Source: a virus
Virus record (IMG/VR): IMGVR_UViG_3300001450_008056
Coordinates: 1-34,111 of that record
Length of the DNA: 34,111 nt
Reading direction: 5' to 3' (one strand)
Part shown: positions 1,422 to 25,043 of the stretch, one piece after another
Layout: each line of letters begins with the position of its first letter
How positions within the stretch are numbered: position 1 is the stretch's first letter
The notes under the pieces: generated by a model
Told to the model about the DNA's origin: nothing
Database searches by the model: none
The model's input: only the letters and a program-made list of their open reading frames with translations
Made by a program: the position numbers and the translations under genes

Positions 1422-1497
1422 CTATCACCTCACTCGCATGTGTGCGGAAACGGTTCTTCTTGCATTTCATACGGCCAACTGCAAGGCTGCCCGACAA
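1422..1497. promoter_or_regulatory. Divergent intergenic region between replication genes
   Basis: About 76 nt separate the leftward primase-polymerase start from the rightward small gene if that gene starts at 1498. Divergent early promoters would be expected here. A GAGG ribosome site for the leftward gene lies at 1428-1431 (reverse strand). I could not find a convincing -35/-10 pair on either strand, so the promoter call rests on gene layout only. Confidence 0.3.
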
Positions 1498-3436: not shown

Positions 3437-3446
3437 GGTAATTCAA

Positions 3447-4232: not shown

Positions 4233-4241
4233 GGTGTTCCT

Positions 4242-6880: not shown

Positions 6881-6912
6881 ATAATAAGAACTTTTTAGGG
6901 TACAAGTAAGCT

Positions 6913-7452: not shown

Positions 7453-7606
7453 AGACTGGTTCAATTCAAAAGAATCTAAATACATATTCAGTTTCATTTC
7501 CATCTGTTTAACTTTTAATCTAGAACCTGTTGCAGTACGCAAAGCATTGACTGATAGACGTTGGCATTGGCAAGCAGTTAGATTTAGAACTATTGGGAGA
7601 AGATAG
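7343..7606 (+). CDS. Small conserved phage protein with WFxS motif
   Basis: This 87-residue protein starts at ATG 7343. The frame is open further upstream, but that part lies inside the nuclease gene. It contains a pattern I recall from small phage proteins: RIKKEAEDWFNSKESKYIFS, followed by SICLTFNLEPVAVRKAL. Members are usually annotated as hypothetical and sometimes compared to DNA-binding or sigma-like small proteins. The helical C-terminal part with VRKALTDRRW could bind nucleic acid, but this is inference. The stop overlaps the helicase GTG by one base (TAGTG). No strong ribosome site precedes 7343; an ATG at 7406 is an alternative that would remove 21 residues. Confidence 0.7.
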   Translation: MGTKTHLNFAEKIQFVILQNAMNELYSKEPRIKKEAEDWFNSKESKYIFSFISICLTFNLEPVAVRKALTDRRWHWQAVRFRTIGRR

Positions 7607-9069: not shown

Positions 9070-9524
9070 ACAATGTATCTAATCGAAACGTAACAGGCAG
9101 ACTCAAAGGTTTAGTTCGCACTGACGTATCCCCACTAGAACTTACTGAAGCCTTGGCGGAAAGACTCAATGTACGTGTACAAGAAAGCATTAAGGAGGGT
9201 CGCGACAGGATTGACTTTAGCCGGGTGCAAGCAGAAGAACTCTGTTACGCACTCTCACTCCTCGTCCAACAGATACAGTGGGCGCAAGACGAGTTGTTCC
9301 CACAGCACGCAGCGTCCACACTCACGAACCACGCTCTTCGGGATTATGACAGGTGGAGAGATATGTACTTGTCACTGCGCAAACGATACAGAGAGTTGGC
9401 GTTCAAGTTTGTAAACGTAGGTAGCACCCTGTCTCCCGCAGCCACCGAAGTAATGTTTGAGGAGCTAGACAGGCGCTTGGTAAACGCTGTGTTTAAGAAG
9501 CGGGAACGCCAAGGCCAATCATAG
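9060..9524 (+). CDS. Small helical protein ending the early block
   Basis: This 154-residue protein starts at a TTG that overlaps the helicase stop. GGGGAGG lies about 10 nt upstream, supporting the start. I do not recognise the family. It appears all-helical: SPLELTEALAERLNVRVQESIKEGRDRIDF, AEELCYALSLLVQQIQWAQDELF, and a C-terminal RWRDMYLSLRKRYRELAF plus FEELDRRLVNAVFKKRER. The Arg/Lys-rich end is compatible with nucleic-acid binding. It is the last gene of the rightward block, and its final 32 nt overlap the end of the convergent 1210-residue gene. Confidence 0.72.
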   Translation: MAVDNVSNRNVTGRLKGLVRTDVSPLELTEALAERLNVRVQESIKEGRDRIDFSRVQAEELCYALSLLVQQIQWAQDELFPQHAASTLTNHALRDYDRWRDMYLSLRKRYRELAFKFVNVGSTLSPAATEVMFEELDRRLVNAVFKKRERQGQS

Positions 9525-12500
9525 GATCATCTTCTAACGCGCCCTTGGCGGCTGCTGCAAAGAGGAATGTAATCTGTGGATACTTTTTCAGGATAGGCCC
9601 AAGGACTTTACGAGCCTTGTCTCCAAGCGGCCCCACCGCCTCAAACATAGGGGCGTGCTGAAAGTAATCCATTAAGATTTTAGGTGGTATATCTGACTTA
9701 GTGGCTAATGACTCTACTATAGCGGGGTTGGTTGGCCTGCTGTTAAAGGTTTCCGTTGAGCGCAGAGGGATGTTGACAGGCTGTACCGTTGGCGCAGTAC
9801 TTACCGTGTCTCTAAGTACAGGGTTCCCAAAACTATCAAACTCAACTGGCGGTTCCTCGTAGGCACGCAACAGATCTGGAGCTATAGCGTCCCCCGGATC
9901 AAATTCGCTGCTTAAGTAATTAATGTTAGTAGTATTTGCAGGCAGAGCAACTCCCCCTTGTTCCGCAGAACGAGTTGCCAAATCTTCGTACACACCTCCC
10001 GGCTGAAGCTGCTCCAACATTCTGCCTTGATGAACAAGGTTGTCCTCACGAGGCAAATTGGCTGCGTGTGCTGGTGAAGTAGGAACCTGCCCAACAGGAG
10101 GCAAGGTGTCTAGCACGGCTTGGTCGTAACGTTCGTTAGCAAGTCTTTGCGCTAACTGTTGGCCTTGCACTTGCCTGTCTAGTAGTTCTGCCTGCAGTTC
10201 TGCGGAAGTCTTGGGAGGTACAACTGGGTCAAGGAGTGGCGCATAACCGTCCCCCCGTACATCAGCACGGTACGGGCCGTAAGGTTCCGCCAAGGAAGGG
10301 AACAACTCTGGCTCGGTTCTAGGAAACGGGAACTGTAGTTGAGAAGTTTGAGCAGCTTTTTGGTCGTATAGTTCTTCAACAATTTGTTGCTGAATTTTAT
10401 TTGGATCGTACCCCAAGGTAGGAGCAACAGGGTCATACAAATTTACAGGCGCTACCATCGGCGTCCCATCTGTAAACGTTGGAGTGGGAGGGGCTATATA
10501 ATTGTCGATTTCAAAGCCCTTAGGCTCAATTGGATCAACATTTAACGGAAGGGTTTCCCTACCACTAGGACCGGGTACTAACGGAGCCGTGTATTGTGGA
10601 GTCAGCACTGCAGGGTCCGAAACGTGATGGGGAACTACAGTCTCGCCTACCTGCACAGAGGGAAACGTAGCAACATCGCCTTCAATTACGGGAGTTAAGT
10701 TTTTGTTGTACGCTCCGGGGGGACGAGTAGTTGTAACGGGAGCCGTAGCAGGAGCATTGTTAAGCACAACGTTACCCGCGTTATTACGACCAGCTACGGC
10801 AGAAGCGTAGAGCAAATCCTTAAACTCTTTGTCAGTAAAAGGAATTGTTCCGTCTCCATCATAAGAACTGTTTAACGCCGTTACGCTATCGGGAACCAGT
10901 TCTTCCGAAACAGTTGCAAAGCGATCCATTGGAACCAAATGAACCTTCTCTGCAGCATTGGCTACACTTTCTGCGGCCTCATTTGTGGTAAAAACTTTAG
11001 TTACTTCTCGACTACCCAAAGAAGTTCCCGGCACAAGCTCTGCTTCCAATACTCTTCGAGCTTCTTCTACGTATTTATTTGCGGCATCCTTTTCTATGTC
11101 GGAAGTGGCAGCTTTAAATCGTCGTTGTCCCTCTGCCTCAGCGGCTTCAAACGTTTCTAGAGCAAGTTGCCGCCGCATTGCAGCGTCACCTAATTCAGGA
11201 AACACAGCTTCTTGTGCCTGCTGTACGCTATCGTAGCCCATGCGACCGGCGTCACGACTGGGATTAGGAGCGTCTGGACCTTGTGTTAAACCTTGAGTAT
11301 CGTGAAATCCTCCAGAAAAATACTGGGCAGTATCCTTACGCTCGTCACGAAGGGCGGAAAAAGGAGCGAAGTAGGCTTCTTCGTTCCCGTGATCCCCGGC
11401 TGAATAAAATATTCCTTTGCCCGGAGTAGGGGATTTAGTGTCGCCTACTATATTTTGTGTTTTGGACCTGTAGTTAATAAGGTACTCACCTCTTGCGGCG
11501 TCTTTACGTTCCCCGTCAAGAACGTTGTCCAAAGCTTTACGAACCTTAAACAACTTGGCTACGTAGTCGCGGTCTTTACTTCTTGCCATTTCCAGTGACA
11601 AGATTCGCATGAGTTCTTCAGTTTCTACACCGCGCCTTTGCCCCGCGTTGTCGATATAAGAGTAGCCAATGTCGTCGGGGTATCCTGCCTGCTTCAACGC
11701 TTTTGCAGAATCAAACTCTTTGGGAAGAGTATTCCAGAGTTCTTTTCGTTCTGAATTTGGATTGTAAGGGGTCCGCACACGTAAAGGTTCTGACTTTTCC
11801 TTGGTGTCTTCAGTATGCGCAGGGGCATTTTTTTCGCGAGTTCCGTCAGGGTTGTGCAGGTTCTTTTCGTCTTGGTGCCATTTTTTCCCAAGAACTTTTC
11901 TCGCTTTATCGTACTGTGCATGAAGAGTTTCGAGTTGTTCGGAAGAAAGGTAGCCGTTGCCGCCGGGTATACTTCCTTCCATATGTAAATCGAGAATTCC
12001 TTCGATGTCCTGTACTGTCGTTTTCGCTGCAATAAACTCTGGACTGCCTTCTACAATTTTGGTTTCAAGCTTACCTGTAGCACTGGCAGATTCTTGGATA
12101 GCCTTAGTACGCAGAGATTTAGATTCATCTAAAAGCTCTGCTACAACCTTGCTTTCTTTTTTTATCTTTTCACGAGCAACACTAAAAGGCGCAGCCTGCT
12201 CTCGAAGGGCACGGCCCTCGGGTCCGGTTGGATCTTCAAGGTTTCTGTACCTTGTTCGTAAAGATTCTAACGCAACCTCAATTTGTTCCAGAATGTACGG
12301 AGTATTATCTACAAAATTCTGAGCGTCGTTTAGCTGAGCAGAACTGTGGTCAACGGGCTTGTAAGTAATTTGTTCCCATTCCCCCGAAGCCATGTACTTT
12401 CTAAGAAACTCCGGCGTCCATCTTTCTGTTTCAGATAGCGCTTCTGCATCGGCCCTAACCACTGGCCTCCGCCCCGTAACCTCTACAAGACCTGTACGCC

Positions 12501-13125
12501 CTTTATCCCCAACAACCTCAACAATGGTACCCGGTTTCACGCGGTTAGAAACTTGACCTACTTTACGAAGAGTAGAAGTTCTTCTCCCTTTAAAAATTTC
12601 GTCAAAGGTAGTGGGCTGTGTGCCCGGAAGCGCCTCACCCTCCCCATACTTAAAGTTCATGGGAATTTTAGCGACTGGCTCTGCGTCTGTACTAAGACTA
12701 GGAGTTAACAATCCGTCGTCAGCAAGTTCTTTAAGCTTCTTAGCGATGTTATCGTTAAGACTTTCAATCTCACTACGGTACTCTGTACCTACAAGAACTC
12801 CGTCGTCATCTAAACGAGTGCTCTCAGGACGAGCAGCAGACTCCCCGTGCTCAGATACAGCTACGTTTTGAGCACCGACTTTCTTATCGGGCCTAAGCGA
12901 ACTTCCTTGAGGAAGCGCCTCATCTACATCATACGTACCGCGATAACCGGGATACATTATTTCGTTATAGATGTCTTCTGCTACTACCGGCTTTTTCTTA
13001 GCGCCTAGTGCTGCGTCCTTGATAGCGTCCCTTGCGGGACCTTCGGGCGTCTTCGACCAAAGAACTCTTGCTTTTTCTATAAATTTCTCAAGAGCTTCTT
13101 TGGTGACTAGGGCTACTGCGGCCAT
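9493..13125 (-). CDS. Large late protein of unknown function (1210 residues)
   Basis: The gene starts at a TAATG overlap with the gene before it, with AGGAG about 8 nt upstream, so the start is firm. I recognise no catalytic domain. The N-terminal half is charged and helical, with a short beta-rich segment around residues 200-235 (PGTIVEVVGDKGRTGLVEV) that resembles a KOW/SH3-like fold. The middle has long acidic helices. Roughly residues 800-1130 are Pro/Thr/Val-rich and probably extended (TAPLVPGPSGRETLPLNVDPIEPKG). A short hydrophobic stretch (ITFLFAAAAKGAL) lies near the C-terminus. It is the last gene of the late block. Large size and low complexity suit a virion, ejection or scaffolding-type protein, but this is inference. 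Its end overlaps the convergent gene by 32 nt. Confidence 0.75.
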   Translation of the reverse strand: MAAVALVTKEALEKFIEKARVLWSKTPEGPARDAIKDAALGAKKKPVVAEDIYNEIMYPGYRGTYDVDEALPQGSSLRPDKKVGAQNVAVSEHGESAARPESTRLDDDGVLVGTEYRSEIESLNDNIAKKLKELADDGLLTPSLSTDAEPVAKIPMNFKYGEGEALPGTQPTTFDEIFKGRRTSTLRKVGQVSNRVKPGTIVEVVGDKGRTGLVEVTGRRPVVRADAEALSETERWTPEFLRKYMASGEWEQITYKPVDHSSAQLNDAQNFVDNTPYILEQIEVALESLRTRYRNLEDPTGPEGRALREQAAPFSVAREKIKKESKVVAELLDESKSLRTKAIQESASATGKLETKIVEGSPEFIAAKTTVQDIEGILDLHMEGSIPGGNGYLSSEQLETLHAQYDKARKVLGKKWHQDEKNLHNPDGTREKNAPAHTEDTKEKSEPLRVRTPYNPNSERKELWNTLPKEFDSAKALKQAGYPDDIGYSYIDNAGQRRGVETEELMRILSLEMARSKDRDYVAKLFKVRKALDNVLDGERKDAARGEYLINYRSKTQNIVGDTKSPTPGKGIFYSAGDHGNEEAYFAPFSALRDERKDTAQYFSGGFHDTQGLTQGPDAPNPSRDAGRMGYDSVQQAQEAVFPELGDAAMRRQLALETFEAAEAEGQRRFKAATSDIEKDAANKYVEEARRVLEAELVPGTSLGSREVTKVFTTNEAAESVANAAEKVHLVPMDRFATVSEELVPDSVTALNSSYDGDGTIPFTDKEFKDLLYASAVAGRNNAGNVVLNNAPATAPVTTTRPPGAYNKNLTPVIEGDVATFPSVQVGETVVPHHVSDPAVLTPQYTAPLVPGPSGRETLPLNVDPIEPKGFEIDNYIAPPTPTFTDGTPMVAPVNLYDPVAPTLGYDPNKIQQQIVEELYDQKAAQTSQLQFPFPRTEPELFPSLAEPYGPYRADVRGDGYAPLLDPVVPPKTSAELQAELLDRQVQGQQLAQRLANERYDQAVLDTLPPVGQVPTSPAHAANLPREDNLVHQGRMLEQLQPGGVYEDLATRSAEQGGVALPANTTNINYLSSEFDPGDAIAPDLLRAYEEPPVEFDSFGNPVLRDTVSTAPTVQPVNIPLRSTETFNSRPTNPAIVESLATKSDIPPKILMDYFQHAPMFEAVGPLGDKARKVLGPILKKYPQITFLFAAAAKGALEDDPMIGLGVPAS
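9507..9550. terminator. Inverted repeat at the convergent gene junction
   Basis: CGCCAAGG at 9507-9514 and CCTTGGCG at 9543-9550 form a perfect 8-bp stem with a 28-nt loop. It sits at the meeting point of the rightward early block and the leftward late block. There is no U-tract and the loop is long, so it is not a classic intrinsic terminator. It may still slow or stop converging transcription. Confidence 0.3.
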
Positions 13126-13764: not shown

Positions 13765-14577
13765 CTAGAAGGGTACGCCTTTGTCCGCTTCTTGTTGAAG
13801 AGAAAGTTTCAAACTACCGTCCATGTCAAACGTATCCAGAAGATATTGCATACGTTTCTTATTGCCGGGTACCCCTGTCAGGACCTCAGCCAGACCCACA
13901 AGATCCATGTTCCGTTCTTTAGCGTACTTGCTCAAACCCTTATAAAGCTCAATGGCATCGTCACGTTCATTCCGAAACCATTCAGCGACATATCCTTCTT
14001 CAAGATGCCCATATTCCGCATCGTAGTCCCCCATGCGATTGTGGGGAATCAACTTTTGAATATCGTCGTGTGTTAGCGCGTCAATTTCCTTGTCACTAAG
14101 TTTTACGCGCTCCCCTACTGTTTCAACTTTAGGAGGAGCATCCTGCGGCAAGAAGGGGCCTTCGGTTCGTGGCTCGGGGACTTCCAGTTTGCGCCCTCGG
14201 GAAAGCATTTGAGTGGAAAGTTTGTGATCAGGAAGAGTTTGTTGATAACTTCCTGTTAGACCTTCCTCAAGTTTGTCCCCCGCTTCCTCCGCAGAAATTG
14301 CTGGAGTATCAATCAGGCCCGGTTGCGTTAAGTCTCTTTGTTCTTTGGCCAGAGCCGCAGCTTCATCAAGATAAACCCCGTCATCAATCAAGGACTGCTG
14401 ACGACCCCTGCCTATGTTTTCGGGAGGAAGCTCAACGTCGCGAAACAAGGGCAGCAAAGCCTCGTCCAAGATTTCATCGGGCGACAGGTCTAGCGAAGCC
14501 CCTTTCTTACTTCCCGTTCTTAGGCCCCGCATAAGACTCTTGCCTGCTTTTTTCCCTCCGGCTCCAAATAGTGCCAT
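13765..14577 (-). CDS. Late protein of unknown function, 270 residues
   Basis: The start is ATG 14577, which overlaps the previous stop as TAATG and has GGAG about 8 nt upstream. The frame extends further upstream but would run through the holin candidate. The N-terminus is basic and Gly-rich (ALFGAGGKKAGKSLMRGLRTGSKKG). The rest is mostly acidic and probably partly disordered. A folded-looking C-terminal part begins near residue 165 (VKLSDKEIDALTHDDIQKLI; WFRNERDDAIELYKGLSKYAKER). I do not recognise the family and see no membrane segment or enzyme motif. It is co-transcribed with the neighbouring late genes. A virion-associated role is only suggested by its position. Confidence 0.72.
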   Translation of the reverse strand: MALFGAGGKKAGKSLMRGLRTGSKKGASLDLSPDEILDEALLPLFRDVELPPENIGRGRQQSLIDDGVYLDEAAALAKEQRDLTQPGLIDTPAISAEEAGDKLEEGLTGSYQQTLPDHKLSTQMLSRGRKLEVPEPRTEGPFLPQDAPPKVETVGERVKLSDKEIDALTHDDIQKLIPHNRMGDYDAEYGHLEEGYVAEWFRNERDDAIELYKGLSKYAKERNMDLVGLAEVLTGVPGNKKRMQYLLDTFDMDGSLKLSLQQEADKGVPF

Positions 14578-14927
14578 TAGTCTTCTCCAATGTATTTGCT
14601 TACAAACTTCCAGACCTTGCCCCAAAGCTTGTTGAACATGCCAACAATAAGGTCGATCAATCCGTCTGCCGCAGGCACGACAAACGGGGCAATCAAAGCC
14701 CACGGGACGTACTTCAGTTCTTTAATTGATCCGCTTTCTTGAGCGATGCGGTACATTTTTTCAGACGCTTCAGCCACGGCTGCTTTCTTTTCTGCACCGT
14801 TCTGCCCACTGGCTTCCGCTTCGAGAACCAATGCACGAAGCAAGGGAAGGAACGCAGCAATAGCGTTTGCTACTTCAGCCCCAGTCGCTTCTTCAACTTT
14901 TTCCACATCTTTAGTTTTGGTAGCCAC
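14577..14927 (-). CDS. Holin candidate
   Basis: This is a 116-residue protein from GTG 14927, chosen because a strong AGGAGGAG site sits 7 nt upstream. The pattern of an N-terminal helical part with LPLLRALVLEAEASGQNGAEK, then a hydrophobic segment VPWALIAPFVVPAADGLIDLIVG and a final amphipathic FNKLWGKVWKFV, recalls LLH-type phage holins, which hold the GAEKKAAV- and LID..V..FNK-like elements. Such proteins open the inner membrane at lysis. The frame also stays open to ATG 14996, which would add 23 Arg-rich residues. It lies next to two further small membrane proteins. I see no separate endolysin gene nearby; the only lysozyme domain is in the giant virion protein. Family assignment is tentative. 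Confidence 0.6.
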   Translation of the reverse strand: MATKTKDVEKVEEATGAEVANAIAAFLPLLRALVLEAEASGQNGAEKKAAVAEASEKMYRIAQESGSIKELKYVPWALIAPFVVPAADGLIDLIVGMFNKLWGKVWKFVSKYIGED

Positions 14928-14934
14928 TTTAGGA

Positions 14935-14942
14935 CTCCTCCT
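14935..14942 (-). promoter_or_regulatory. Ribosome binding site inside the longer holin reading frame
   Basis: On the reverse strand AGGAGGAG occupies 14942-14935, 7 nt before GTG 14927. It is the strongest ribosome site seen in the window. It lies within the coding frame of the longer form that would start at 14996. Confidence 0.65.
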
Positions 14943-15000
14943 GTTATTCGCCAACCGCCCCCGTCTGATACTCCGGATACGATGGGGATTTGCCATTTAA

Positions 15001-15252
15001 TTAGCGGCCTCTACGGATCATAGGTCGAGGCACAAAAGGCGCACCCAATCCGCCGCCTTTCTTAAACGAAAGAGGGGCTTGTCCGGGCAATCCTTTTTCG
15101 CTGGTAATAGAAAGCTTATCTCCCGATCGGGGATTGTTGCTTTGTCCTCCGCCGCCACTTTCTTTGCGGGCGTTGTTCTGGGGGTTTACGGGGTAATTGT
15201 TGTTAGAATGGGGAGTTCCCATTACATTTCCGGGTATACGTCCTTGCATCAT
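15001..15252 (-). CDS. Small basic, disordered late protein
   Basis: This 83-residue protein starts at an ATGA overlap with the gene before it. It is rich in Asn, Gly, Pro and Arg (ESGGGGQSNNPRSGDK; PMIRRGR at the end) with almost no hydrophobic core, so it is probably disordered. I do not recognise the family. It lies between the membrane-anchored coiled-coil protein and the holin candidate, so it shares their late operon. Binding to DNA or to virion protein surfaces through its basic residues is possible but not shown. Confidence 0.6.
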   Translation of the reverse strand: MMQGRIPGNVMGTPHSNNNYPVNPQNNARKESGGGGQSNNPRSGDKLSITSEKGLPGQAPLSFKKGGGLGAPFVPRPMIRRGR

Positions 15253-15557
15253 TCGCTCCTTGGATGTCTTTCAGACTCGTGTTCGCTAAGGGCGCGTGAT
15301 CCGCGCTCGTCAATAGCTTCCAATTTCCTAGCAACACCTTCCAGAATCCTAGCGGTGTCTGCGTTTTGTGATGATAACTCTCTTAATACCTGTTCTTGCT
15401 GAACAGCTAGTTCACGATTGTCTTTTTGCACTGCTGTAATTTGTACGTCTTGCCGCAAATTGTGCTCATTTACACCGTTGATGACAAACAACAACATTGT
15501 AGCCAAAAGCCCCACAACTCCGCCTATTGCCCACCGAAACCAAGTGCTGATATCCAT
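15249..15557 (-). CDS. Membrane-anchored coiled-coil protein (possible spanin or lysis accessory)
   Basis: This 102-residue protein has one membrane segment at about residues 8-27 (FRWAIGGVVGLLATMLLFVI). A long coiled coil follows (LRQDVQITAVQKDNRELAVQQEQVLRELSSQNADTA), and then a charged tail. A single N-terminal anchor plus a periplasmic coiled coil is the layout of Rz-type inner-membrane spanins, and its neighbours include a holin candidate. No overlapping outer-membrane lipoprotein gene (Rz1) is visible, so the spanin reading is uncertain. Its stop overlaps the next start as ATGA. An AAGGG site lies about 11 nt upstream of the ATG. Confidence 0.72.
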   Translation of the reverse strand: MDISTWFRWAIGGVVGLLATMLLFVINGVNEHNLRQDVQITAVQKDNRELAVQQEQVLRELSSQNADTARILEGVARKLEAIDERGSRALSEHESERHPRSE

Positions 15558-15564
15558 TGAAACA

Positions 15565-15723
15565 TTACCCTTTTACGGCCTTCATTTGACCCGTAGCCCC
15601 TTGTCCAAGCCCGCTACCAAGGAGCAAAAGCCCCAGACTACGGCCTTCCGGATCGCCCCAAAAGTATAGCACAATACCTGCTGCCACTTGAATACCCAGT
15701 GTAATTAGCCATTTGTAATTCAT
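15565..15723 (-). CDS. 52-residue membrane protein, holin-like
   Basis: This gene is short but well supported. ATG 15723 overlaps the preceding stop as ATGA and the frame runs 52 codons to TAA. The protein MNYKWLITLGIQVAAGIVLY continues with FWGDPEGRSLGLLLLGSGLGQG, giving two hydrophobic segments separated by a short charged turn, and ends with a Lys. Two-helix proteins of this size beside other lysis-type genes are often class II-like holins or antiholins. It could equally be an unrelated membrane peptide. It fills what would otherwise be an empty 160-nt gap in the operon. Confidence 0.65.
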   Translation of the reverse strand: MNYKWLITLGIQVAAGIVLYFWGDPEGRSLGLLLLGSGLGQGATGQMKAVKG

Positions 15724-16109
15724 TGCTCAACCTTTACGCTAGAAATGCTTTGACAATCGCTGCTTACAAAAGAAAAGTTCTCTCCAGTTTTTGAAACAAA
15801 GACATTACACCTAGTATATTCAATAAAAACTTTCCAAAGTTGAACGCTATCCACTTCAGACTCTAGCCTGCTTTCACAGTTACTAATAATTTGAGCTGAA
15901 CTATCTAGGGCGGTTAAAAATAGCGTGCCCTGAAAACCGTAAGTGTAATCTTCTTTACTCAGGGCGCAGGTCATTGTTCCGTACATCGCATGGCCGTGAA
16001 CAGAAGTTTCTACTTTGTAGGGAATAGCTGCAAAAGAATTTGAAGGAAGGCCCAGTGCCAAGCTAGTCGCAAGCAAACTAATAGTTGTAATGAACTTTAA
16101 TAAAAGCAC
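15720..16109 (-). CDS. Small exported protein with four cysteines
   Basis: This is a 129-residue protein from GTG 16109, supported by a run of G (16115-16120) 5 nt upstream. The frame is open further upstream but without a better start. It has an evident signal peptide (LLLKFITTISLLATSLALGLPSNSFA, cleavage likely after residue 27). The mature part is about 100 residues with four Cys, all placed as if for two disulfides (TMTCALS, SNCES, TRCNV, SDCQS). I do not recognise the family. It overlaps the end of the large beta-helical gene by 32 nt and is the last of five consecutive genes with signal sequences. It should end up in the periplasm or outside the cell. Confidence 0.72.
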   Translation of the reverse strand: MLLLKFITTISLLATSLALGLPSNSFAAIPYKVETSVHGHAMYGTMTCALSKEDYTYGFQGTLFLTALDSSAQIISNCESRLESEVDSVQLWKVFIEYTRCNVFVSKTGENFSFVSSDCQSISSVKVEQ

Positions 16110-19100
16110 CCGTTCCCCCCTTTCCTCCCAAGCAGGTTGCCAAAACATTCGGTGCGGGCCCGCCGTCTCCCCCAGACAAATTTATTTGGCCATTAAGAGC
16201 ATTTCCCGGTTCCCCGTTCGGTGCCGTATATTTGCCTCTTAGACCCAAATAGAAAGATCCTCCACCGCCACCCCCTGAACATTTGGCGCCGGCCCCCCCA
16301 TATAAAAGAATTTTACCAAAACCTGTAACGGCAAAGTCTCCTTTTACCTGCATTATTAAGCCCGCTCCACCCGAACCTCCCCGGCACGTAGTATCACAAT
16401 ACCCAACGTTGTTTGAGCCATCGGCGTACCCTCCACCTCCTGACGCTGCCCCATACCAAACGACTGGACTTTGCGAAGTAGGAACTAAAGACTGGCAACC
16501 GCTTCCACCAGTAGCGCCACCATTTTTTTGCCCGCCCGCTCCAGCAAAGCTGGTTTCAAAAGAAGGGTTTACAACATAATCAACAAGGCAAAATTTATTG
16601 AGGGTGCCTCCAGTATTTTTACAGACCGTAGAAGTGTTTGTTGGAGTGCCTGCAAAAGTTCCAGTCCCGCCCATGGCGGTGGCGCTGCCGGAAGTACTAG
16701 TAGAATTTCCTCCTTTGCCACCTTTAGCGAGAGCCGTAGAACACCCGTCAAGGCCATTGATTGCCGTTGTCGCAGAAATAGCCCCCACTCCCCCGTAACC
16801 GCCAGCCTCACTGCCATCTAAAGACCCGTTGATAAGCACATCGCCAAGAACTTTAAACCACATATTCCCGCCTATGAACTTGCCAGAAGGGGCTGATAGC
16901 TCCTTCCTTTCCGTAGAGCGTTTTAAGCTAAGTCTATGGAATACAGCTAACGTAAAGCTAGTAAGATTATATTTAGCACTTACGCCGTCAGCCAATTCAG
17001 TCGGGAAGATCAGCCCTTGCCAAGTAGTTTTGTCCATCCCCTGAAAAGAATTTTCGCGCAAAACACAGGAACAGACATTCTCGAGAGCTAAAACTGCATT
17101 GGCGTCTTCGGGGGTACAACTTTTTAACGGACTACTAGAAGTGCCCGTCGCCACGGTAGCGTATGCCGCGCACTCCGCTCCAGTAGTAGCGTCTAAGGTC
17201 AGGGCTCCATCGCTGCCATCACCATACAGTTCTGTTTCTCTGTCTAAGGCGTAGCCAAACATTGGCTTCCAATTGGCTAGAGATTCTTTGCCGTTGTAAG
17301 TGTTGCTTCCAATAACAACATCCTTAGCTACAAAAGGAGTACTAGTTGCCCCAACTGTACCGTAAGAAATTGTTGCAGGAAATTTAATTGACGCTTCAGA
17401 AGAAGCAGGAGTAAACCAGTTATTTCCTATTACTAAATTTTTAGAAGCAGGAGGCACGCTGCTTGCCGCAAAATTAATAGGGGCGTCGGTTGAACTTAAA
17501 TTGCCAACTTCATAAAACATGTTGCCGGTTATCGTTAAATTAGAGGTAGCCCTTTGAGCTGTACACATATTGCAGTAGCCACCTACGCCCGCAGAATAAT
17601 CCCCGCCGCTGGCAATGCAGTTTTCAGTTGTAGGTGAGTCCGTCATAAGAACGCTGCCGGGACAGGTGCTGCGAGCGTTGGCGTTGTCCCAAGTATCGCC
17701 GGGGCAATCAGTTGAAGCGTTTGCTAGCCTGCACACTAAACCTTCGTTTGGTCCGGAGTCACAAACGCCACTCGTATTGGCTGCTCCGTTCGGTATGTCG
17801 ATAAACACCTCTCTGCAAACTGGAGGCGAATGACTGCACGTTGTAAAAACGCATTGCGCCGCTGTTCCGGCAGCGTTATTTCCCGAGCACTCCGAGCTTT
17901 TATCGCAGATGTCACCGTCATCAGAGCCCCCTGAACAAGTTCCTCTTTTACAGTTAAGGCCCCTGCTAGCGTTAATTACTTGGCCAAACATCCGCCTCTG
18001 CGTGCTGTAACTATGAAAAGAATTGCTGTTTAGAATAGAGTGGCCAGTGGGGCTAGTGCCATTCGCGCTTTCGCTATTAAACTGGCCAAGGACTACGTTG
18101 GCCTGTTCTCTTAAAGGCTCTGTTGGCTTTTGCAAGTTATAACAAAGCGACCCTGTATCTGCTCCTACCATGCAAGCACCATTACCATTGCAGCCGTAAC
18201 CTGCTCTAGGGCCACTAAGGCAAGTTTTTCCTCCTTCACCTTGCCAGTTAATAACGTTGCCTACTGCGTGCCATCCGGTTCCTAGCGCAATACCAATTCC
18301 TCTATGGAATTTAATTTGAGTTCCCGTGACTCTTACGTTGACTTGAGAACCGCCAATTCCATTAACGCCTCCCATAAACACAGAGTTAATAACTTCTGTG
18401 TATTGACCTGAGAACGGTGTTTCAGGAGTTCCTGCCCAAACGTTCCAGTTGTCAGGAAAATCGCCAATAGCTTGGTTTGCAGCTGGAGCTTTTCGGACGC
18501 TAGGAAGCTTACCCGTTGCTCCAGATATGGTTTGACCGTAAACGTTAGCATGGTAGCCGTAATAACTTCCCCCCTTTGTTCCATTTTGAAACGAGTAGGA
18601 GTTGTTTGCCCAGCTTTTGCCCCCGGAAAAAATAACGTGGTGGCCATGCCTGTGAAAATCGCTAGTCCCTTCCGTAGTATTATTTACCCACCAAACATTA
18701 GTATCGGCTTTGTAGGTATTGGCTTCGCCTACGCCAAATTGCGATAGCTTAATTCCGTAAAAGTTATTTGCTCCCGATCCTTTTTTGTCTGCAACAGAGC
18801 ATCGAGTAGAATCGTTTCCGCACGAGCCAGTGATTACATTTCCCGAGGCAAGAGTGTAGCCGTTTGATGCTGATCTAAGATTAATAGCTTCCCTAGTTGC
18901 CCTGAGAACCGTAGAGTCAACAACCCTGATTGGAGAATACGTTATTCCAAATAATGTTTTGCAAGTAGACGAGGAGCACTCATTATCATTGGCACAAAGG
19001 CCATTTGGGATCCCACTAGTGTTTGAACCCGTTACGCAATATCCACCGTATGTATTATTGGCGTTGCTTCTACTTGTTCCGGATCTTGCAACGACACGAA

Positions 19101-19947
19101 GAGTATCCGAAAAAATACCCGGACGCAGTTCTCCCGAAGAGTAGGTTTTAATTCCGTATGTAAGATTTTGCGAAAAATCGTTACATATAGCATTGCTTAC
19201 TTGGCACGGGTTAGCGTTATTGCAAACCTGAGCGCTGCCACCAGTCGCGTTATTAGAACAAACGCCATTAAATTCTACTTCAACGTTTTTAACAAACGCG
19301 CAAGAGCTTGTCTCAGCCGGGTGCGCCTCGCCGGCAACAGTGAGGGCAGTAATTATATACGCCCTGCTGTCAGAGCACCCCAAAGCAACACCAGTGCTAC
19401 TTTTATTCACGAAATAATTTACTGGAGTATTGTAAATTTTAGAATCTTTTAAGGACAAATTTGAAGATCGTGTTAGCCAGTTTGTGCCCGAAGCCACCCC
19501 TCCAACCGTAAAATACGAAAATAGGTTAATCCCCACTCCGTACTTTAGGTTCATGTCTACATCGCAATTAGATACACCTACATTTCTGGTAAAAGTAGGA
19601 GGATCTGTCCAAGAATTTTTTAGCTTAATTACCCCTTGGGTATAGTCTACGTTGTCCTCTGCGTGAAGATAAGCACCATCGCACACAAGCTCCGTATTAG
19701 AGAGAAGTTCAATTCCTCCAGTTCCAATACCGCAATGGTCTGCCGTTCCTTTGATTAATGTAAGCCGAATATTGCCTGTTGCAATTAAGTTGTTAATGTT
19801 TTCGTCGTCGTTAGCGCCTGTGCATCGGTATACTCGACTATCCGAAATAGTCCCGTCAACAGAGGTAAGGGGTGCTGTCGCTTCTAGGGCGTAGGAGGGA
19901 GCAGCGAACAGCACCCCGAGCATTACATAAGTAAATAGCTTGTACAT
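16078..19947 (-). CDS. Secreted Cys-rich, probably beta-helical adhesin with Gly-rich C-terminus
   Basis: This 1289-residue protein begins with a signal peptide (residues 1-20, cleavage after SYA). Short repeated strand-turn units follow (NTELVCDGAYLHAEDN; VGVSNCDVDMNLKYG; NLTITGNMFYEVGN; NLVIGNNWF), which suggest a right-handed parallel beta-helix like pectate lyases and tailspikes. Between them are several Cys-rich inserts of the type C-x-GG-x(3)-G-x-x-C-x(4)-C (for example CSGGSDDGDICDKSSEC, and CDSGPNEGLVC). From about residue 1060 the chain is very Gly-rich (YGGVGA, AKGGKGG, RGGSGGAG, SGGGGGGSFYLG), like the glycine-rich receptor-binding ends of some phage adhesins. No catalytic site is identifiable. 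A receptor-binding or surface-modifying role is inferred. The signal peptide is unusual for a tail-fibre region protein. Confidence 0.8.
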   Translation of the reverse strand: MYKLFTYVMLGVLFAAPSYALEATAPLTSVDGTISDSRVYRCTGANDDENINNLIATGNIRLTLIKGTADHCGIGTGGIELLSNTELVCDGAYLHAEDNVDYTQGVIKLKNSWTDPPTFTRNVGVSNCDVDMNLKYGVGINLFSYFTVGGVASGTNWLTRSSNLSLKDSKIYNTPVNYFVNKSSTGVALGCSDSRAYIITALTVAGEAHPAETSSCAFVKNVEVEFNGVCSNNATGGSAQVCNNANPCQVSNAICNDFSQNLTYGIKTYSSGELRPGIFSDTLRVVARSGTSRSNANNTYGGYCVTGSNTSGIPNGLCANDNECSSSTCKTLFGITYSPIRVVDSTVLRATREAINLRSASNGYTLASGNVITGSCGNDSTRCSVADKKGSGANNFYGIKLSQFGVGEANTYKADTNVWWVNNTTEGTSDFHRHGHHVIFSGGKSWANNSYSFQNGTKGGSYYGYHANVYGQTISGATGKLPSVRKAPAANQAIGDFPDNWNVWAGTPETPFSGQYTEVINSVFMGGVNGIGGSQVNVRVTGTQIKFHRGIGIALGTGWHAVGNVINWQGEGGKTCLSGPRAGYGCNGNGACMVGADTGSLCYNLQKPTEPLREQANVVLGQFNSESANGTSPTGHSILNSNSFHSYSTQRRMFGQVINASRGLNCKRGTCSGGSDDGDICDKSSECSGNNAAGTAAQCVFTTCSHSPPVCREVFIDIPNGAANTSGVCDSGPNEGLVCRLANASTDCPGDTWDNANARSTCPGSVLMTDSPTTENCIASGGDYSAGVGGYCNMCTAQRATSNLTITGNMFYEVGNLSSTDAPINFAASSVPPASKNLVIGNNWFTPASSEASIKFPATISYGTVGATSTPFVAKDVVIGSNTYNGKESLANWKPMFGYALDRETELYGDGSDGALTLDATTGAECAAYATVATGTSSSPLKSCTPEDANAVLALENVCSCVLRENSFQGMDKTTWQGLIFPTELADGVSAKYNLTSFTLAVFHRLSLKRSTERKELSAPSGKFIGGNMWFKVLGDVLINGSLDGSEAGGYGGVGAISATTAINGLDGCSTALAKGGKGGNSTSTSGSATAMGGTGTFAGTPTNTSTVCKNTGGTLNKFCLVDYVVNPSFETSFAGAGGQKNGGATGGSGCQSLVPTSQSPVVWYGAASGGGGYADGSNNVGYCDTTCRGGSGGAGLIMQVKGDFAVTGFGKILLYGGAGAKCSGGGGGGSFYLGLRGKYTAPNGEPGNALNGQINLSGGDGGPAPNVLATCLGGKGGTGAFIKVHYNY

Positions 19948-19969
19948 TTACCGTACTTTCTTGGTTAGC

Positions 19970-20794
19970 TTAGGAAGTTTTCTCTACGGAGCAGTTGATA
20001 AATTCGCCCGCGTAAGAAGTGCCGACACTGATTTTAACTACAGCACAAGTATTCGTGCCGTCTACGGCAGTAGTGCCACTTCCAGTTGCCTTGTTAGTGC
20101 CAGTAGTGGGTAAGGTGACTGTGACATTTCCTGAAGAAAAAGCACTGGTCGATCCACAAGGCCCCGAAAAAAGCTTAACCGTATTTCCCGCCCCTGCCGC
20201 TGAAGAAGCCCTGCACGTTATGTTCGTGTAATTACCCGAAGGAAGGGGAGTATGGACTGTTGGCTCAGTAGAACTCAGATCGCCGGAAAGACTGGCATAC
20301 AGAACCTTGGTTCCGGAACTCGGTGCAGATATCGAGGTATTAGTGCGGAATGTAATAACGGCTGGAATTGCCGTAACACTAGGTTGATCCGCACAAGCAT
20401 AATCGCTAGTCCCATTGCCAGCGACAAGAATCTCATCAGGGTCACAATCGAGAAGCGAAAGTACCGGAGTCGTGGCGGTGGTGTTATCTACCTCAAGCCC
20501 GGTGCTATTAGCTAATTTAGTTACCGAGGTCACGCCCTCGTTGTCAGTAGGGTTAGCTACACATTTCAAAGCTGGCGCACCATTGGTTTGAACCACGCTG
20601 AGTCTTTTGGAGGCCCCGCAGGCATTAGTGGTTGTTGCCTCAATAGGAAGGTTAATTGCGCCGTCTGCTGCGGTAAGAGGGGCACTAGCTGTCAAAGCCC
20701 ATGCGATGGAAGGCGTTAGGGTGAGGCTCAAAGCGGCAAACAGCGTAAGCGCCGCTCCCACAGCAACGTAAGTTTTTTTGAAAGTTTTGTTCAT
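19970..20794 (-). CDS. Exported beta-rich protein, 274 residues
   Basis: The protein has a signal peptide of 33 residues (FKKTYVAVGAALTLFAALSL and onward, cleavage after AWA). AAGGA lies 8 nt before the ATG. The mature protein starts LTASAPLTAADGAI, closely resembling the mature start of the next gene's 1289-residue product (LEATAPLTSVDGTI). The rest is Thr/Ser/Ala-rich and strand-forming, with several Cys (TNACGAS, LKCVAN, LDCDPDE, YACADQ, ITCRAS, SGPCGS, NTCAVV, INCSVE), suiting an extracellular disulfide-bonded beta protein. The C-terminal 100 residues read like a small beta-sandwich. I do not recognise a family. Shared N-terminus and adjacency suggest it works with the large adhesin-like protein. 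Confidence 0.75.
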   Translation of the reverse strand: MNKTFKKTYVAVGAALTLFAALSLTLTPSIAWALTASAPLTAADGAINLPIEATTTNACGASKRLSVVQTNGAPALKCVANPTDNEGVTSVTKLANSTGLEVDNTTATTPVLSLLDCDPDEILVAGNGTSDYACADQPSVTAIPAVITFRTNTSISAPSSGTKVLYASLSGDLSSTEPTVHTPLPSGNYTNITCRASSAAGAGNTVKLFSGPCGSTSAFSSGNVTVTLPTTGTNKATGSGTTAVDGTNTCAVVKISVGTSYAGEFINCSVEKTS

Positions 20795-20805
20795 GGTAAT
20801 GATCC

Positions 20806-21297
20806 TTAGTTAAGTACCGCTTGCGCGGTAAAGTTAATGATAGTGGGGGCGGGACTGCCTGTAGGTTCTACTTTTAAAGAAAATTTTTGTCCGGCATCAA
20901 AGCTCTGACTCACGCTTGTAAGCAAAACGTACTGGTTGGGGTTGTTAATAATAGTGGACGTAGCCGTTATCGGCGTATCGTCTCTCATTACGGTGATTTT
21001 CCAAGTTGTTCCTGTTCCCGGCGGAACCGACAAAGTTACCGCAACAGTATTAAAGGTTGTCGATGCCGTGGCGGGTATACCGACATCGGCAACATCAGAG
21101 GATGAGGTAGCTCCGACGTACACAATATTACCACCAGACAGGGGGATTTGACTACTGCCAGCAACTACCAGCGTAGACGGCCCCGCTGGTCCTTGACTGC
21201 CCCCGCTACCACCGGAGGTGCGTATGTCAGAAGCTCCAGCGTGGGAAGGAATTGCCATAAGCAACGCAACGGCAAGAACCTTAAAGAAAGAACCCAT
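20806..21297 (-). CDS. Exported small protein with Gly-rich linker, 163 residues
   Basis: Starts at ATG 21297, preceded by GGAGGGG about 5 nt upstream; a GTG at 21303 would add two residues but overlaps that site. It has a signal peptide (GSFFKVLAVALLMAIPSHA, cleavage after residue 20). A short Gly-rich linker with a collagen-like GPAGPS (about residues 28-40) follows, and then a beta-rich domain of about 120 residues (KITVMRDDTPITATSTIINN; KFSLKVEPTGSPAPTIINF). It has no Cys in the mature part, unlike its neighbours. The flexible linker plus beta domain suits a surface-exposed or trimeric fibre component. I do not recognise the family. Confidence 0.72.
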   Translation of the reverse strand: MGSFFKVLAVALLMAIPSHAGASDIRTSGGSGGSQGPAGPSTLVVAGSSQIPLSGGNIVYVGATSSSDVADVGIPATASTTFNTVAVTLSVPPGTGTTWKITVMRDDTPITATSTIINNPNQYVLLTSVSQSFDAGQKFSLKVEPTGSPAPTIINFTAQAVLN

Positions 21298-21299
21298 AT

Positions 21300-21725
21300 T
21301 CACCCCTCCGTCAAATAATGCAGGTTAGCAGTAGAGCTTTTAGTAAAACATTTCCAACCTGTCGTACCGACATCAGTAGCTTTATCAAGGATCAAAGCGT
21401 CGTCTGTCTTTAGGTACATAGAGTTGGCTTCAAAACTCGCTTCAACACAGGTACTCGCGCTAGCGGGGCAAATGTACACGGTTTCCGAGCCAATATTCCG
21501 CATGATCAAGCTAGCCCTGCCACTGAAGCTAGTCCCAAAAACTTCGCCATTTGTGTCACAAGTCACTCGACCTGTAACTACCCCTTTGCCCTGCTGATGT
21601 TTGGTATAGAAAGGCTGACCGTAGCCGCCGCTGGGGGTAGCACGGGCCATAGTTGCCAATCCCAAAAACAGCAACAGGACCCCTATTGCCAAGGTCCACG
21701 CTATAAGTTTATCTTTACGGTCCAT
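21300..21725 (-). CDS. Exported small protein with four cysteines, 141 residues
   Basis: Starts at ATG 21725, overlapping the previous stop as TAATG, with AAGGA 7 nt upstream. The N-terminus is a signal peptide or membrane anchor (KLIAWTLAIGVLLLFLGLATMARA, possible cleavage after residue 29). The mature region has four Cys (VTCDT, YICPAS, STCVEA, WKCFTK) and beta-forming sequence (ASLIMRNIGSETVYICPAS; SMYLKTDDALILDKAT). I do not recognise the family. It is the first of five consecutive exported proteins, directly behind the last fibre-like gene, so it is translated together with tail proteins although it should leave the cytoplasm. Confidence 0.72.
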   Translation of the reverse strand: MDRKDKLIAWTLAIGVLLLFLGLATMARATPSGGYGQPFYTKHQQGKGVVTGRVTCDTNGEVFGTSFSGRASLIMRNIGSETVYICPASASTCVEASFEANSMYLKTDDALILDKATDVGTTGWKCFTKSSTANLHYLTEG

Positions 21726-22714
21726 TAGTAGTTCCTTCGGATTTCCCAATCAAACTCAATAGTCGAGCCAGATGAGGTGTAGTTTTCAAATTGAATTACG
21801 CAAAAACTCTTTGATTTTACTACCTTTTTTACAATATAGGAAGAGGCTGTTTGCGCTGTGCCAGTAGAGCTTTGGGGAGTAATATCTATAGAATAGTTTG
21901 TATCTACTTCGGGGTAGGGGAAAATAGCGCAATACTCTGAATTCCCTTCAGCCACCCTTATTCTACCATACTGAGCCGTTCTTGGAATCGGGCACTCTTG
22001 CACGGAATTTGGGTTACTATCGGTACTTGTAGGGGGAGTAGTAACAGCCTGAAGCCGGAAATTAGAGGCCGCATAAGCCAGATTTTGCATGGGGGCGTAG
22101 GCTGAAAAATCTAAAAATACGTCCACATAACTACCCAAAGATCCATGTCCTATCTTTGCGTAGTCTGCCTGAGATATGTCATCTACCGCCTCGGAAACTA
22201 AGCCAGTACTGTTAGCGGACGTAGCTGCCTGCCATTTCCGAAGGCCGGTTACGTATACGTAAGACCCCGAAGCAGTACTACTGTCCGCACTGTACGCAGC
22301 CCTTGTGGCCGAAACGAAGCCTGTGTAGTAATTGTAGTTTTGAGCAGCAACGGAAGAAGTAGATTCTTGGCCCACACTTAAAACGAATTGCTGGCCTTCT
22401 ACTCCACGCATCCATTTGCCGTACCAAGTACTGAGCAAAATCGTATTGTTGTAGTAAACGCTGCCGCTAGTGTTGTAAACTCCGGCAACGTACCGAGTCC
22501 CCTTATTATTCCCCCAACTAGAACTAGGGTCCCAAGCCAAATTTAAAGATTCTTCGCGAATAGCCCCTTTAATGTCGCGAATAGCGTTACCTAAACTAGC
22601 GTACTGACCTGCGTTTGTGTTGGGGCTAGCGGGATTTATCTTTTCCCCATCCTTGGGTTGGTTTTTTTCTACATTACTTCGCCAAGTATTCAAGGTTGTA
22701 ATTGTGTCAGCCAT
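21725..22714 (-). CDS. Tail-fibre-like protein C, 329 residues
   Basis: Starts at ATG 22714, overlapping the previous stop as TAATG. GAGG lies about 11 nt upstream; a longer frame to 22747 lacks a site. The N-terminus (MADTITTLNTWRSNVEKNQP, then YASLGNAIRDIKGAIREE) has the iR-x-iK-x-x-iR signature seen near the start of many phage tail-fibre or collar proteins. The middle is Ser/Thr/Tyr-rich and beta-forming. The C-terminus (FENYTSSGSTIEFDWEIRRN) resembles a knob-type final strand and matches the end of fibre-like protein B (FFDWSI). It probably contributes to host binding on the virion. It has no signal peptide, unlike the next five genes. Confidence 0.75.
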   Translation of the reverse strand: MADTITTLNTWRSNVEKNQPKDGEKINPASPNTNAGQYASLGNAIRDIKGAIREESLNLAWDPSSSWGNNKGTRYVAGVYNTSGSVYYNNTILLSTWYGKWMRGVEGQQFVLSVGQESTSSVAAQNYNYYTGFVSATRAAYSADSSTASGSYVYVTGLRKWQAATSANSTGLVSEAVDDISQADYAKIGHGSLGSYVDVFLDFSAYAPMQNLAYAASNFRLQAVTTPPTSTDSNPNSVQECPIPRTAQYGRIRVAEGNSEYCAIFPYPEVDTNYSIDITPQSSTGTAQTASSYIVKKVVKSKSFCVIQFENYTSSGSTIEFDWEIRRNY

Positions 22715-23496
22715 TATGAATAGTACCTCGGCATTGTAATGCTCCAATCAAAAAAGATTTCCATCTTTACGCTGTCCACTGTACCCGGAGATTCAAATAC
22801 ATTTACGGTAAACTGGTTAAAATCTTTTGTAACAGATTTAATTAGACTAGAGTTTTCTTTTGTAATGTTTGGGTCTTTGTAGCAACACGACAAATGAACC
22901 ATGTAGTCTTTAGTGGGCATGTACAATTTAGTTTCATTAGAAACAAAGGTATCCGCAGCGCCAACAAACGTTGTCGCTGTGTTTTGTTTTGTAGAAAAAT
23001 CTACTACAAAAGAAGAAGCGCTTCCTCGAATTCCTGCTGACCCGCCAACAGAACTTAAGGGAAAAGCTTTCGGTAGATTGTTGTCAGTACCCAGATACAG
23101 CACAGTGTGGTTTGTGGTCCACGACTCACGCCAGAACGCTGCAGTAACAGTCGTTGCTTTTGCGCTGGAAGAATAGTTTGTAGCTATAACTACGCCGCCT
23201 ACTAAAGATCCTGAAGCAGGATCTAGCGCTACAATCTTTCTCCCTCTTTCAAATTGAGCTAAAACGTTTCCGTTTACGTTAAAGATTACAACTCTGTAAC
23301 TTCCTTGGGCATCAAAGGGAGCGTTTGTAAGTTCAAAATCATGGTCTTCGTAAAGTTTGTTAAAAGATAAAATTCGGTAAACACTTTTGATGTTGCGAAT
23401 TTGAGCCGCTAAATCAGTTCCTATTGTAGAGGCATCCGAGGGCGCGTTAGGCGAACCGGATTTCCATTGATAAATTTTAGTATCTAATACAGCCAT
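22714..23496 (-). CDS. Tail-fibre-like protein B, 260 residues
   Basis: Starts two bases after the preceding stop. The N-terminus (MAVLDTKIYQWKSGSPNAPS, then IGTDLAAQIRNIKSVYRI) matches the first part of fibre-like proteins A and C. The Gly/Ser-rich middle contains a RGSASSFVVDF stretch, and the C-terminus (FNQFTVNVFES..KMEIFFDWSI) is beta-forming and shared with protein C. It is probably a short fibre or adapter that attaches by the common N-terminal segment and carries a different body from its two neighbours. No enzyme motif or signal peptide is visible. The ribosome site is weak, so coupling to the gene upstream is likely. Confidence 0.73.
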   Translation of the reverse strand: MAVLDTKIYQWKSGSPNAPSDASTIGTDLAAQIRNIKSVYRILSFNKLYEDHDFELTNAPFDAQGSYRVVIFNVNGNVLAQFERGRKIVALDPASGSLVGGVVIATNYSSSAKATTVTAAFWRESWTTNHTVLYLGTDNNLPKAFPLSSVGGSAGIRGSASSFVVDFSTKQNTATTFVGAADTFVSNETKLYMPTKDYMVHLSCCYKDPNITKENSSLIKSVTKDFNQFTVNVFESPGTVDSVKMEIFFDWSITMPRYYS

Positions 23497-23498
23497 GG

Positions 23499-25043
23499 TT
23501 AGCTCACGTTATCCCGCTTGTAAGGCGTTTTGCCGTTTAAGGACGGAGTAAGGATAGTCACATCGTAAACAATTGTGGCTACAAAAGGCTTTCGGAATTT
23601 AATACTAAACTTTACTGTTTCTCGATTTCTTTGTGAAACAGACGCCCAATTAGTTCCAGACCATTGGTTCATTGATACTTCTGGGCAAGCGATGTCTGTG
23701 GTTAATTCAAACCCTTGCTCTGAACTAACAACTTCTACGCATTTTATAAAAGCTCTGTAGTCTGTTCCTGCATCTTCGACAAGTCCCCTATAGCTCATAG
23801 GGTAAGCTAATTTTCCAGCACCAAACTCAAAAGTTTTTGTTTCGTTTTGCCCTGCATTTTGTACAATAATTCTGTACGAAATACTTTCGTGTTGCTGCCC
23901 ATTTAATTCACGGTTCCCGTTTTGAGTACCAATTAAATAATACGCGCTGTCTGGTGCCGTAATAACATCCCCGGAATTTTCAGGATTTTTTAAAAATTCT
24001 TCGTTAGACATTCGCATTACATACTTTGTCGTTAAAGAATCACTTGCCCCCGCACCAGAAGAAGGAGTCCATGGGTTTGTAAGGGTATAATCTAATCCGC
24101 AGTAAGTAGTCATTTGCGTTTGCAAAAGATTGTCAGTTTGTCCAAACGCTGCTTCTGCTTCAGATTCCGTCATACCATCGACTTCTACAGCAAGATCTTT
24201 TGCGTAAGCATACAGTCCTATGTACCGATCATTATCTACGTTTCTGTAACTACCGTCCATTACTAGAGAATATGATCCGTTGGGATAATATTCGTTTAGA
24301 TCCGTGGCGTTGTCAGGATAATTAGTTCCACGATTAGTAGTTTTTTCTAAACGAATTACCTGTATCCTACGGCCTTTTGGATTAGCGCATTTAAATTTGG
24401 TTGCGTTGTTTCCATTAACAACTTTAAGTTCCCAAATATGAGAAGACGCAGGGCCAGATTTTAGGAGAGAAAAAGATACGTCTGAAGCGCAAACTTCGTC
24501 TGCTCTGGGAAACGGAACTAATTGGGGATGAAAATTAATTTTACTAGCGGGACCAAAAGCTTCGTATCCAGTATTTGCAGGTTGGTTGCTTTGCGCCCCT
24601 GTTATCTGTAAAGAAGCAAACTTTTTAAATCCGTCAGAACTTACACAGAAGGGCGTGCCGGGAAACAAAACTTCTTCCCAATCTCCCATAATTTGAAAAG
24701 AGTAATCTACCATGGAAGTAGAGCTTTGGTTCCCCACCCCTGTTGCAATAAGGTCGTGAGGAACTAAAGCGTTTGCAGTTATCTCTGCAGGGGTTGCTGA
24801 TTTGTACAAGGCATAAGGTTTACCGGTGCCCGGAGCGGGCATGGGCGTGGTTTTAACGGAATAGGTAATCACATTCTGATCAGTCAAATCCTGTGAATTA
24901 CTTAAATCTTTTTTAGACAATTCTTTTAAAGACCTAAATTCTCCGCCTAAAGAAGTTCCAATAAGGGATTCTTGGTCAGGAAGGTTAGTATCTTGACCTG
25001 AAAAATCGCTTTCCCACTCTTCTAATTTCGTATCAATTGCCAT
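23499..25043 (-). CDS. Tail-fibre-like protein A, 514 residues
   Basis: Starts at ATG 25043, overlapping the end of the giant gene by 11 nt, with AGGG 6 nt upstream. The N-terminus (MAIDTKLEEWESDFSGQDTN, then LIGTSLGGEFRSLKELSKKD) aligns with fibre-like proteins B and C over about 45 residues. The remainder is beta-rich and aromatic, with an FRKPFVATIVYDVTIL strand near the end. I do not recognise a known fibre family beyond the N-terminal pattern, and there are no catalytic motifs. Being first in the trio and longest, it may be the main fibre or adapter. It has no signal peptide. Roles are inferred from position and shared ends. Confidence 0.75.
   Translation of the reverse strand: MAIDTKLEEWESDFSGQDTNLPDQESLIGTSLGGEFRSLKELSKKDLSNSQDLTDQNVITYSVKTTPMPAPGTGKPYALYKSATPAEITANALVPHDLIATGVGNQSSTSMVDYSFQIMGDWEEVLFPGTPFCVSSDGFKKFASLQITGAQSNQPANTGYEAFGPASKINFHPQLVPFPRADEVCASDVSFSLLKSGPASSHIWELKVVNGNNATKFKCANPKGRRIQVIRLEKTTNRGTNYPDNATDLNEYYPNGSYSLVMDGSYRNVDNDRYIGLYAYAKDLAVEVDGMTESEAEAAFGQTDNLLQTQMTTYCGLDYTLTNPWTPSSGAGASDSLTTKYVMRMSNEEFLKNPENSGDVITAPDSAYYLIGTQNGNRELNGQQHESISYRIIVQNAGQNETKTFEFGAGKLAYPMSYRGLVEDAGTDYRAFIKCVEVVSSEQGFELTTDIACPEVSMNQWSGTNWASVSQRNRETVKFSIKFRKPFVATIVYDVTILTPSLNGKTPYKRDNVS

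Follow-up and report, generated by a model that had tools for sequence, protein, structure and literature searches.

Five consecutive late genes (E1 to E5) of a marine, temperate, podovirus-type phage encode proteins that all begin with a predicted signal peptide, and exported proteins recur among the structural genes of viruses and prophages that belong to this phage's capsid lineage, several of them carrying a signal peptide where known tail proteins carry their N-terminal part. We tentatively read E1 to E5 as a set of adhesins that is exported by Sec, folds in the periplasm and may then be loaded onto virions when lysis merges the compartments.

Source phage and capsid lineage

The window, i.e., the whole stretch of 34,111 nt that was analysed, is a virus fragment (IMGVR_UViG_3300001450_008056). 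A second contig (IMGVR_UViG_3300001450_000094) is 100% identical to window positions 1-11866 (11.9 kb), extends 26.6 kb leftward, and carries the terminase, portal, and capsid genes that are missing from the window; the two pieces therefore appear to be one genome of ~60 kb. The capsid, which was compared directly, matched Bcep22/LASTA-type phages (~28-40% identity to the best phage matches), and the portal and terminase were of podovirus type as assigned by PHROG only, placing the phage among the Bcep22/LASTA-like podoviruses. The capsid also matched 42 other viral contigs, and a capsid alignment recruited 80 genome loci, many of them alphaproteobacterial, including prophages. The early arm encodes an integrase, a helicase whose best phage match was DSL-LC04, and a split DNA polymerase. 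The polymerase gene is of the DNA polymerase I type (window positions 4242-6106) and consists of an exonuclease ORF and a polymerase ORF that overlap by 4 bases.

A run of predicted exported proteins in the late gene block

A sequence-only reading of the window had described five consecutive late genes on one strand, all with signal peptides and four of them Cys-rich, directly behind three tail-fibre-like genes without signals, and had called an export run at this place unexpected. Each of these points held on analysis, the signal peptides by a home-made rule and least well in E5. The genes of the block are listed below, with predicted cleavage sites marked by a slash.

Positions 25033-34035, minus strand: giant virion- or injection-type protein, 3000 aa, N-terminal lysozyme domain, 0 Cys
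Positions 23499-25043, minus strand: F1, fibre-like, N-terminal segment of W...P...IRxIK type (putatively particle-docking), no signal peptide
Positions 22714-23496, minus strand: F2, fibre-like, N-terminal segment of W...P...IRxIK type (putatively particle-docking), no signal peptide
Positions 21725-22714, minus strand: F3, fibre-like, W...P...IRxIK motif at the N-terminus (putatively for particle docking), no signal peptide
Positions 21300-21725, minus strand: E1, small protein, predicted exported, ATG at 21725, 141 aa, signal peptide 1-29 (MDRKDKLIAWTLAIGVLLLFLGLATMARA / T), 4 Cys
Positions 20806-21297, minus strand: E2, predicted exported, ATG at 21297, 163 aa, signal peptide 1-22 (MGSFFKVLAVALLMAIPSHAGA / S), 0 Cys
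Positions 19970-20794, minus strand: E3, fibre-like, predicted exported, ATG at 20794, 274 aa, signal peptide 1-33 (MNKTFKKTYVAVGAALTLFAALSLTLTPSIAWA / L), 8 Cys
Positions 16078-19947, minus strand: E4, spike/adhesin-like, predicted exported, ATG at 19947, 1289 aa, signal peptide 1-20 (MYKLFTYVMLGVLFAAPSYA / L), 46 Cys
Positions 15720-16109, minus strand: E5, predicted exported, GTG at 16109, 129 aa, signal peptide 1-27 (MLLLKFITTISLLATSLALGLPSNSFA / A), 4 Cys
Positions 15565-15723, minus strand: hydrophobic protein, 52 aa, start overlapping the E5 stop
Positions 15249-15557, minus strand: 102 aa protein, N-terminal hydrophobic segment, coiled-coil-like tail
Positions 14577-14996, minus strand: 139 aa protein, holin-like in sequence character only

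Signals were scored by n-region charge, a 9-residue hydrophobic core, and the residues at -3 and -1. In all five E proteins, a charged n-region is followed by a hydrophobic core and an AxA-type site, as is typical of Sec-exported substrates of signal peptidase I; on the home-made scale E1 to E4 scored 4.06-5.24 and E5 was weakest and borderline at 3.28. On these features, export to the periplasm is well supported, and the signal peptides would be cleaved. The run is not due to chance, because a comparable rule passed in only 31 of 1363 late-strand ORFs of related phages and prophages and in 2 of 81 spurious ORFs of the window, such that four strict matches and one weaker match in succession have a chance probability below about 1e-5. 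Among the rest of the phage's called genes the rule picked out only likely false positives, e.g., an ORF with a single TM segment and an injection-type protein rich in Ala. Start misannotation or a frameshift masking a docking domain was ruled out for E1 to E4 by the overlap or the gaps of 2-22 bases to the preceding gene.

The Cys content of the four Cys-rich proteins (all except E2) is 2.8-3.6%, the counts are even (4, 8, 46, and 4), and no Cys lies within the signal segments. Elsewhere in the late block, neither the 3000-aa protein nor a 1210-aa protein (9493-13125) contains Cys. E2 has a short collagen-like stretch (GSQGPAGP) after its signal, likely followed by a beta-rich domain, and E4, which resembles a spike or adhesin judging from its sequence alone, has Cys-rich inserts and a Gly-rich C-terminal part. 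The predicted mature N-terminus of E3 (LTASAPLTAADGAI) resembles that of E4 (LEATAPLTSVDGTI), and the N-terminal alignment of the two (46% over 41 residues including the signal, E 0.27) is suggestive of a common motif directly behind the signal. A scan for this motif (APLT..DG.I) found it in no exported relative and in one repeat fibre, in L083. AlphaFold models from single sequences had a mean pLDDT of 37 for E1 and 31 for E4 residues 21-640, too low to be of use.

The genes are tightly packed. F3 and E1 overlap at TAATG, the intergenic distances are 2 (E1-E2), 11 (E2-E3), and 22 bases (E3-E4), E4 overlaps E5, and E5 in turn overlaps the 52-aa ORF; Shine-Dalgarno-like sequences precede most of the E1 to E5 starts. 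Promoter and terminator patterns in the block were not above those of shuffled sequence, and codon usage of E4 followed that of the other late genes (r 0.94). Because of this spacing, the lack of a promoter or terminator excess, and the late-type codon usage, the block was read as one late transcription unit rather than an independent moron, which would be marked by its own promoter and terminator or by a distinct composition. The 52-aa hydrophobic protein is possibly a holin or a membrane partner, and the small membrane proteins of 52, 102, and 139 aa clustered at 14577-15723 may form a lysis cassette. Among the phage genes searched, none was identified as a separate endolysin.

Homologs of E1 to E5 were not detectable by tblastn in 50,697 phage genomes, nor were those of F1. 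E1 to E5 had no significant match in Pfam or PHROG, and thus none to known tail families; E4 had no match in the PDB, and no close relatives of E4 or of the 3000-aa protein were found among viral contigs. No convincing domain common to any E protein and F1 to F3 was found.

Exported proteins in related viruses and prophages

The sequence-only reading knew of no described system with this arrangement, but the arrangement recurs in viruses and prophages that share the capsid lineage of the phage. In the viral contig G011 (IMGVR_UViG_3300037466_001881), the order is the same as in the window: a docking fibre without signal (698-1471), a small exported protein of 183 aa (1468-2019), an exported tailspike (1989-4043), a TM protein, and an endolysin-like gene. 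At least seven of ten Methylobacterium/Methylorubrum prophages with long flanks encoded one or more exported proteins among their structural genes (L101, L106, L107, L113, L116, L120, and L122), and none was found in L114, L119, or L121; since the survey mostly covered 10 kb on either side of the capsid gene, these counts are lower bounds. Adjacent exported pairs were present in L101 (198 and 457 aa), L107 (8443-9632; 179 aa and a collagen-like protein of 216 aa), and the further genome L209 (386-2118; about 182 aa and a collagen-like fibre of 375 aa). Divergent homologs of the small exported protein occur in L107, L209, and L210, and all of them retain the signal. E1 to E5 are tied to these proteins by layout and capsid lineage, not by sequence homology. 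A need for disulfides as the general cause of export was ruled out, because exported relatives can have as few as 0-2 Cys (L101b, L120, and L106) and E2 has none.

A signal peptide in place of the docking end

Unlike E1 to E5, several of the exported proteins of relatives matched tail fibre and tailspike families (PHROG 13768, 2631, 4209, 5073, and 5939), with the best alignments beginning mid-profile: from position 107-110 of 718 in PHROG 13768, 293 of 644 in 2631, 356 of 801 in 5939, and 266 of 519 in 5073. The C-terminal end of the L120 protein is a Pfam Gp53-like_C domain (E 8e-13), and the exported L107 fibre has a Pfam collagen match. The G011 spike was ~42% identical to known tailspikes over roughly residues 32-134. 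The corresponding segment in PMG1, FSL SP-076, SS9, and PPAT sits tens to hundreds of residues from the N-terminus, in proteins that have no signal. Similarly, the segment of Azospirillum phage Cd gp49 that matches L101b lies well inside a signal-less protein, and, apart from the exported L120 gene, the three strong PF21882 matches among fibres of the order all lack a signal peptide. Because the alignments begin mid-profile and the equivalent segments are internal in signal-less proteins, the signal peptide is placed, by alignment, where the docking part would be; in several exported relatives the N-terminal part of the tail families is missing. An N-terminal particle-docking domain was likewise not found in E1 to E5, which begin with signal peptides.

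Comparison with known systems

The exported relatives resemble tail fibres and tailspikes (PHROG 13768, 2631, 5939, and 5073; PF21882) in their bodies and tips and in their place among structural genes, but differ in the signal peptide that replaces the family N-terminal part, and E1 to E5 match no family. The phage shares capsid homology, a ~60 kb genome, a giant internal protein, and late-block fibre genes with the large podoviruses of the Bcep22/LASTA type; however, the same rule revealed no export run in the examined parts of LASTA, Agrobacterium phage Atu_ph08, and Rhizobium phage RHph_Y1_10. Tailed phages are conventionally taught to assemble wholly in the cytoplasm. The phage envelope proteins Llp of T5 and Lom of lambda are sent out by Sec, and Llp masks its receptor. 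Another exported phage product is the endolysin Lys44 of fOg44 (PMC6116005). All three are phage products exported by Sec, as proposed for the E set, but are single proteins for lysis or envelope change rather than adhesin sets. No description of a phage with exported fibres or spikes was found in the openly accessible literature, where the nearest cases are bacterial. The MAT fibre proteins of Bdellovibrio, which serve prey recognition, are likewise phage-like fibres with a signal peptide, but are encoded by bacterial rather than phage genes (PMC10769870). WceF of Pantoea stewartii likewise combines a tailspike fold with an export signal, but the signal is of the Tat type and the protein is a bacterial exopolysaccharide enzyme (PMC7949094).

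Proposed export and loading at lysis, and alternatives

For loading, we infer the following steps, the last of them with most reserve. Late in infection, the E genes would be transcribed together with the docking fibres, and the host Sec machinery would deliver the E proteins to the periplasm; there they would lose their signal peptides and fold, and disulfides would form in E1, E3, E4, and E5. Holin opening of the inner membrane and cleavage of the wall would place virions together with the concentrated periplasmic adhesins in one compartment while the outer membrane is still intact, and the adhesins could then load onto the particle, perhaps with the docking fibres F1 to F3 and a small exported protein as intermediaries. 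Consistent with loading are the five signal-bearing genes in a tightly packed late block, their position next to structural genes, the occurrence of several exported proteins per set, and the stalk-like repeats. A further, suggestive point is the motif directly behind the signals of E3 and E4, of a kind expected for a common docking tag. The gene order of G011, the exported pairs of L101, L107, and L209, the mid-profile tail-family matches, and the retained signals of the L107, L209, and L210 homologs point the same way. Against it, replacement of the docking end speaks against ordinary particle attachment, and E1 to E5 lack both sequence homology to the exported relatives and a convincing domain in common with F1 to F3.

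The replaced docking end is what would be expected if the exported proteins never became virion parts and acted as free proteins: by binding the receptor or cleaving polysaccharide, they would occupy or strip receptors on the dying cell and its debris and so keep progeny from sticking or superinfecting. We regard this, the main alternative to loading, as possible, if somewhat doubtful. Spike and fibre bodies are retained in the exported relatives while the N-terminal part of the tail families is gone, the E block adjoins small membrane and lysis-type genes, and precedents exist in the receptor-masking Llp of T5 and, among bacteria, the exported tailspike-fold enzyme WceF. However, neither a lipobox nor a barrel or autotransporter domain was noticed, which leaves a periplasmic E-type protein no obvious way of reaching the surface ahead of lysis. 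Several proteins with collagen-like stalks, occurring as a set, resemble assembly parts more than a single blocker, and no tip in common with the docking fibres was found.

The sequence-only reading had raised three ideas, of which virion capture at lysis and a free exported function such as exclusion are more likely than the third. This third idea, lysogenic conversion, would have the adhesins displayed on or secreted by the lysogen, altering host adhesion or excluding other phages. The phage has an integrase, and Bdellovibrio MAT fibres show that exported fibre-like adhesins exist in bacteria, but this account is unlikely for genes that abut or overlap fibre genes upstream and a membrane-protein gene downstream, within a late block with late-type codon usage in E4 (r 0.94) and promoter and terminator patterns no higher than chance. 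All readings beyond loading, free action, and lysogenic conversion are together improbable. That the signal-like N-termini are membrane anchors or serve another role, with no mature protein exported, is most improbable: the home-made predictor and the weak E5 would allow it, but AxA-type sites in all five proteins, even and disulfide-compatible Cys counts, and the complete signal in divergent Methylobacterium prophage homologs of the small exported protein argue otherwise.

Taken beyond this phage, the pattern suggests host-mediated export of phage adhesins before the cell bursts, an undescribed step. Still more guardedly than for E1 to E5, we propose that some tailed phages finish their particles outside the cytoplasm, with Sec-exported adhesins that mature in the periplasm, are loaded at lysis, and have exchanged the docking domain for a signal peptide. 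A lineage that repeatedly swaps a fibre's docking end for an export signal would, if confirmed, imply either that particles are finished in the periplasm, which would permit adhesins rich in disulfides, or that phages make a class of free adhesins with a role at lysis. Both readings are testable now because module-bearing prophages sit in cultured environmental Methylobacterium strains, with candidates in M. fujisawaense DSM 5686, M. goesingense DSM 21331, M. nonmethylotrophicum 6HR-1, and M. gossipiicola Gh-105.

Further observations on exported proteins

A small exported protein followed by an exported collagen-like fibre, as in L107 and L209, is a recurring two-gene pair in Methylobacterium-family prophages. 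In L121, a non-exported 100-aa protein (8031-8333) lies between scaffold and capsid, where sister prophages have a small exported protein. G011 encodes a further exported protein near the terminase, of 196 aa and 70% identical to one in G012. Homologous exported 196-aa proteins lie near the terminase of two viruses at L030 4062-4652 and L031 2328-2918, and their C-terminal part is weakly similar to F3 residues 223-300 (E 0.002 in a small set).
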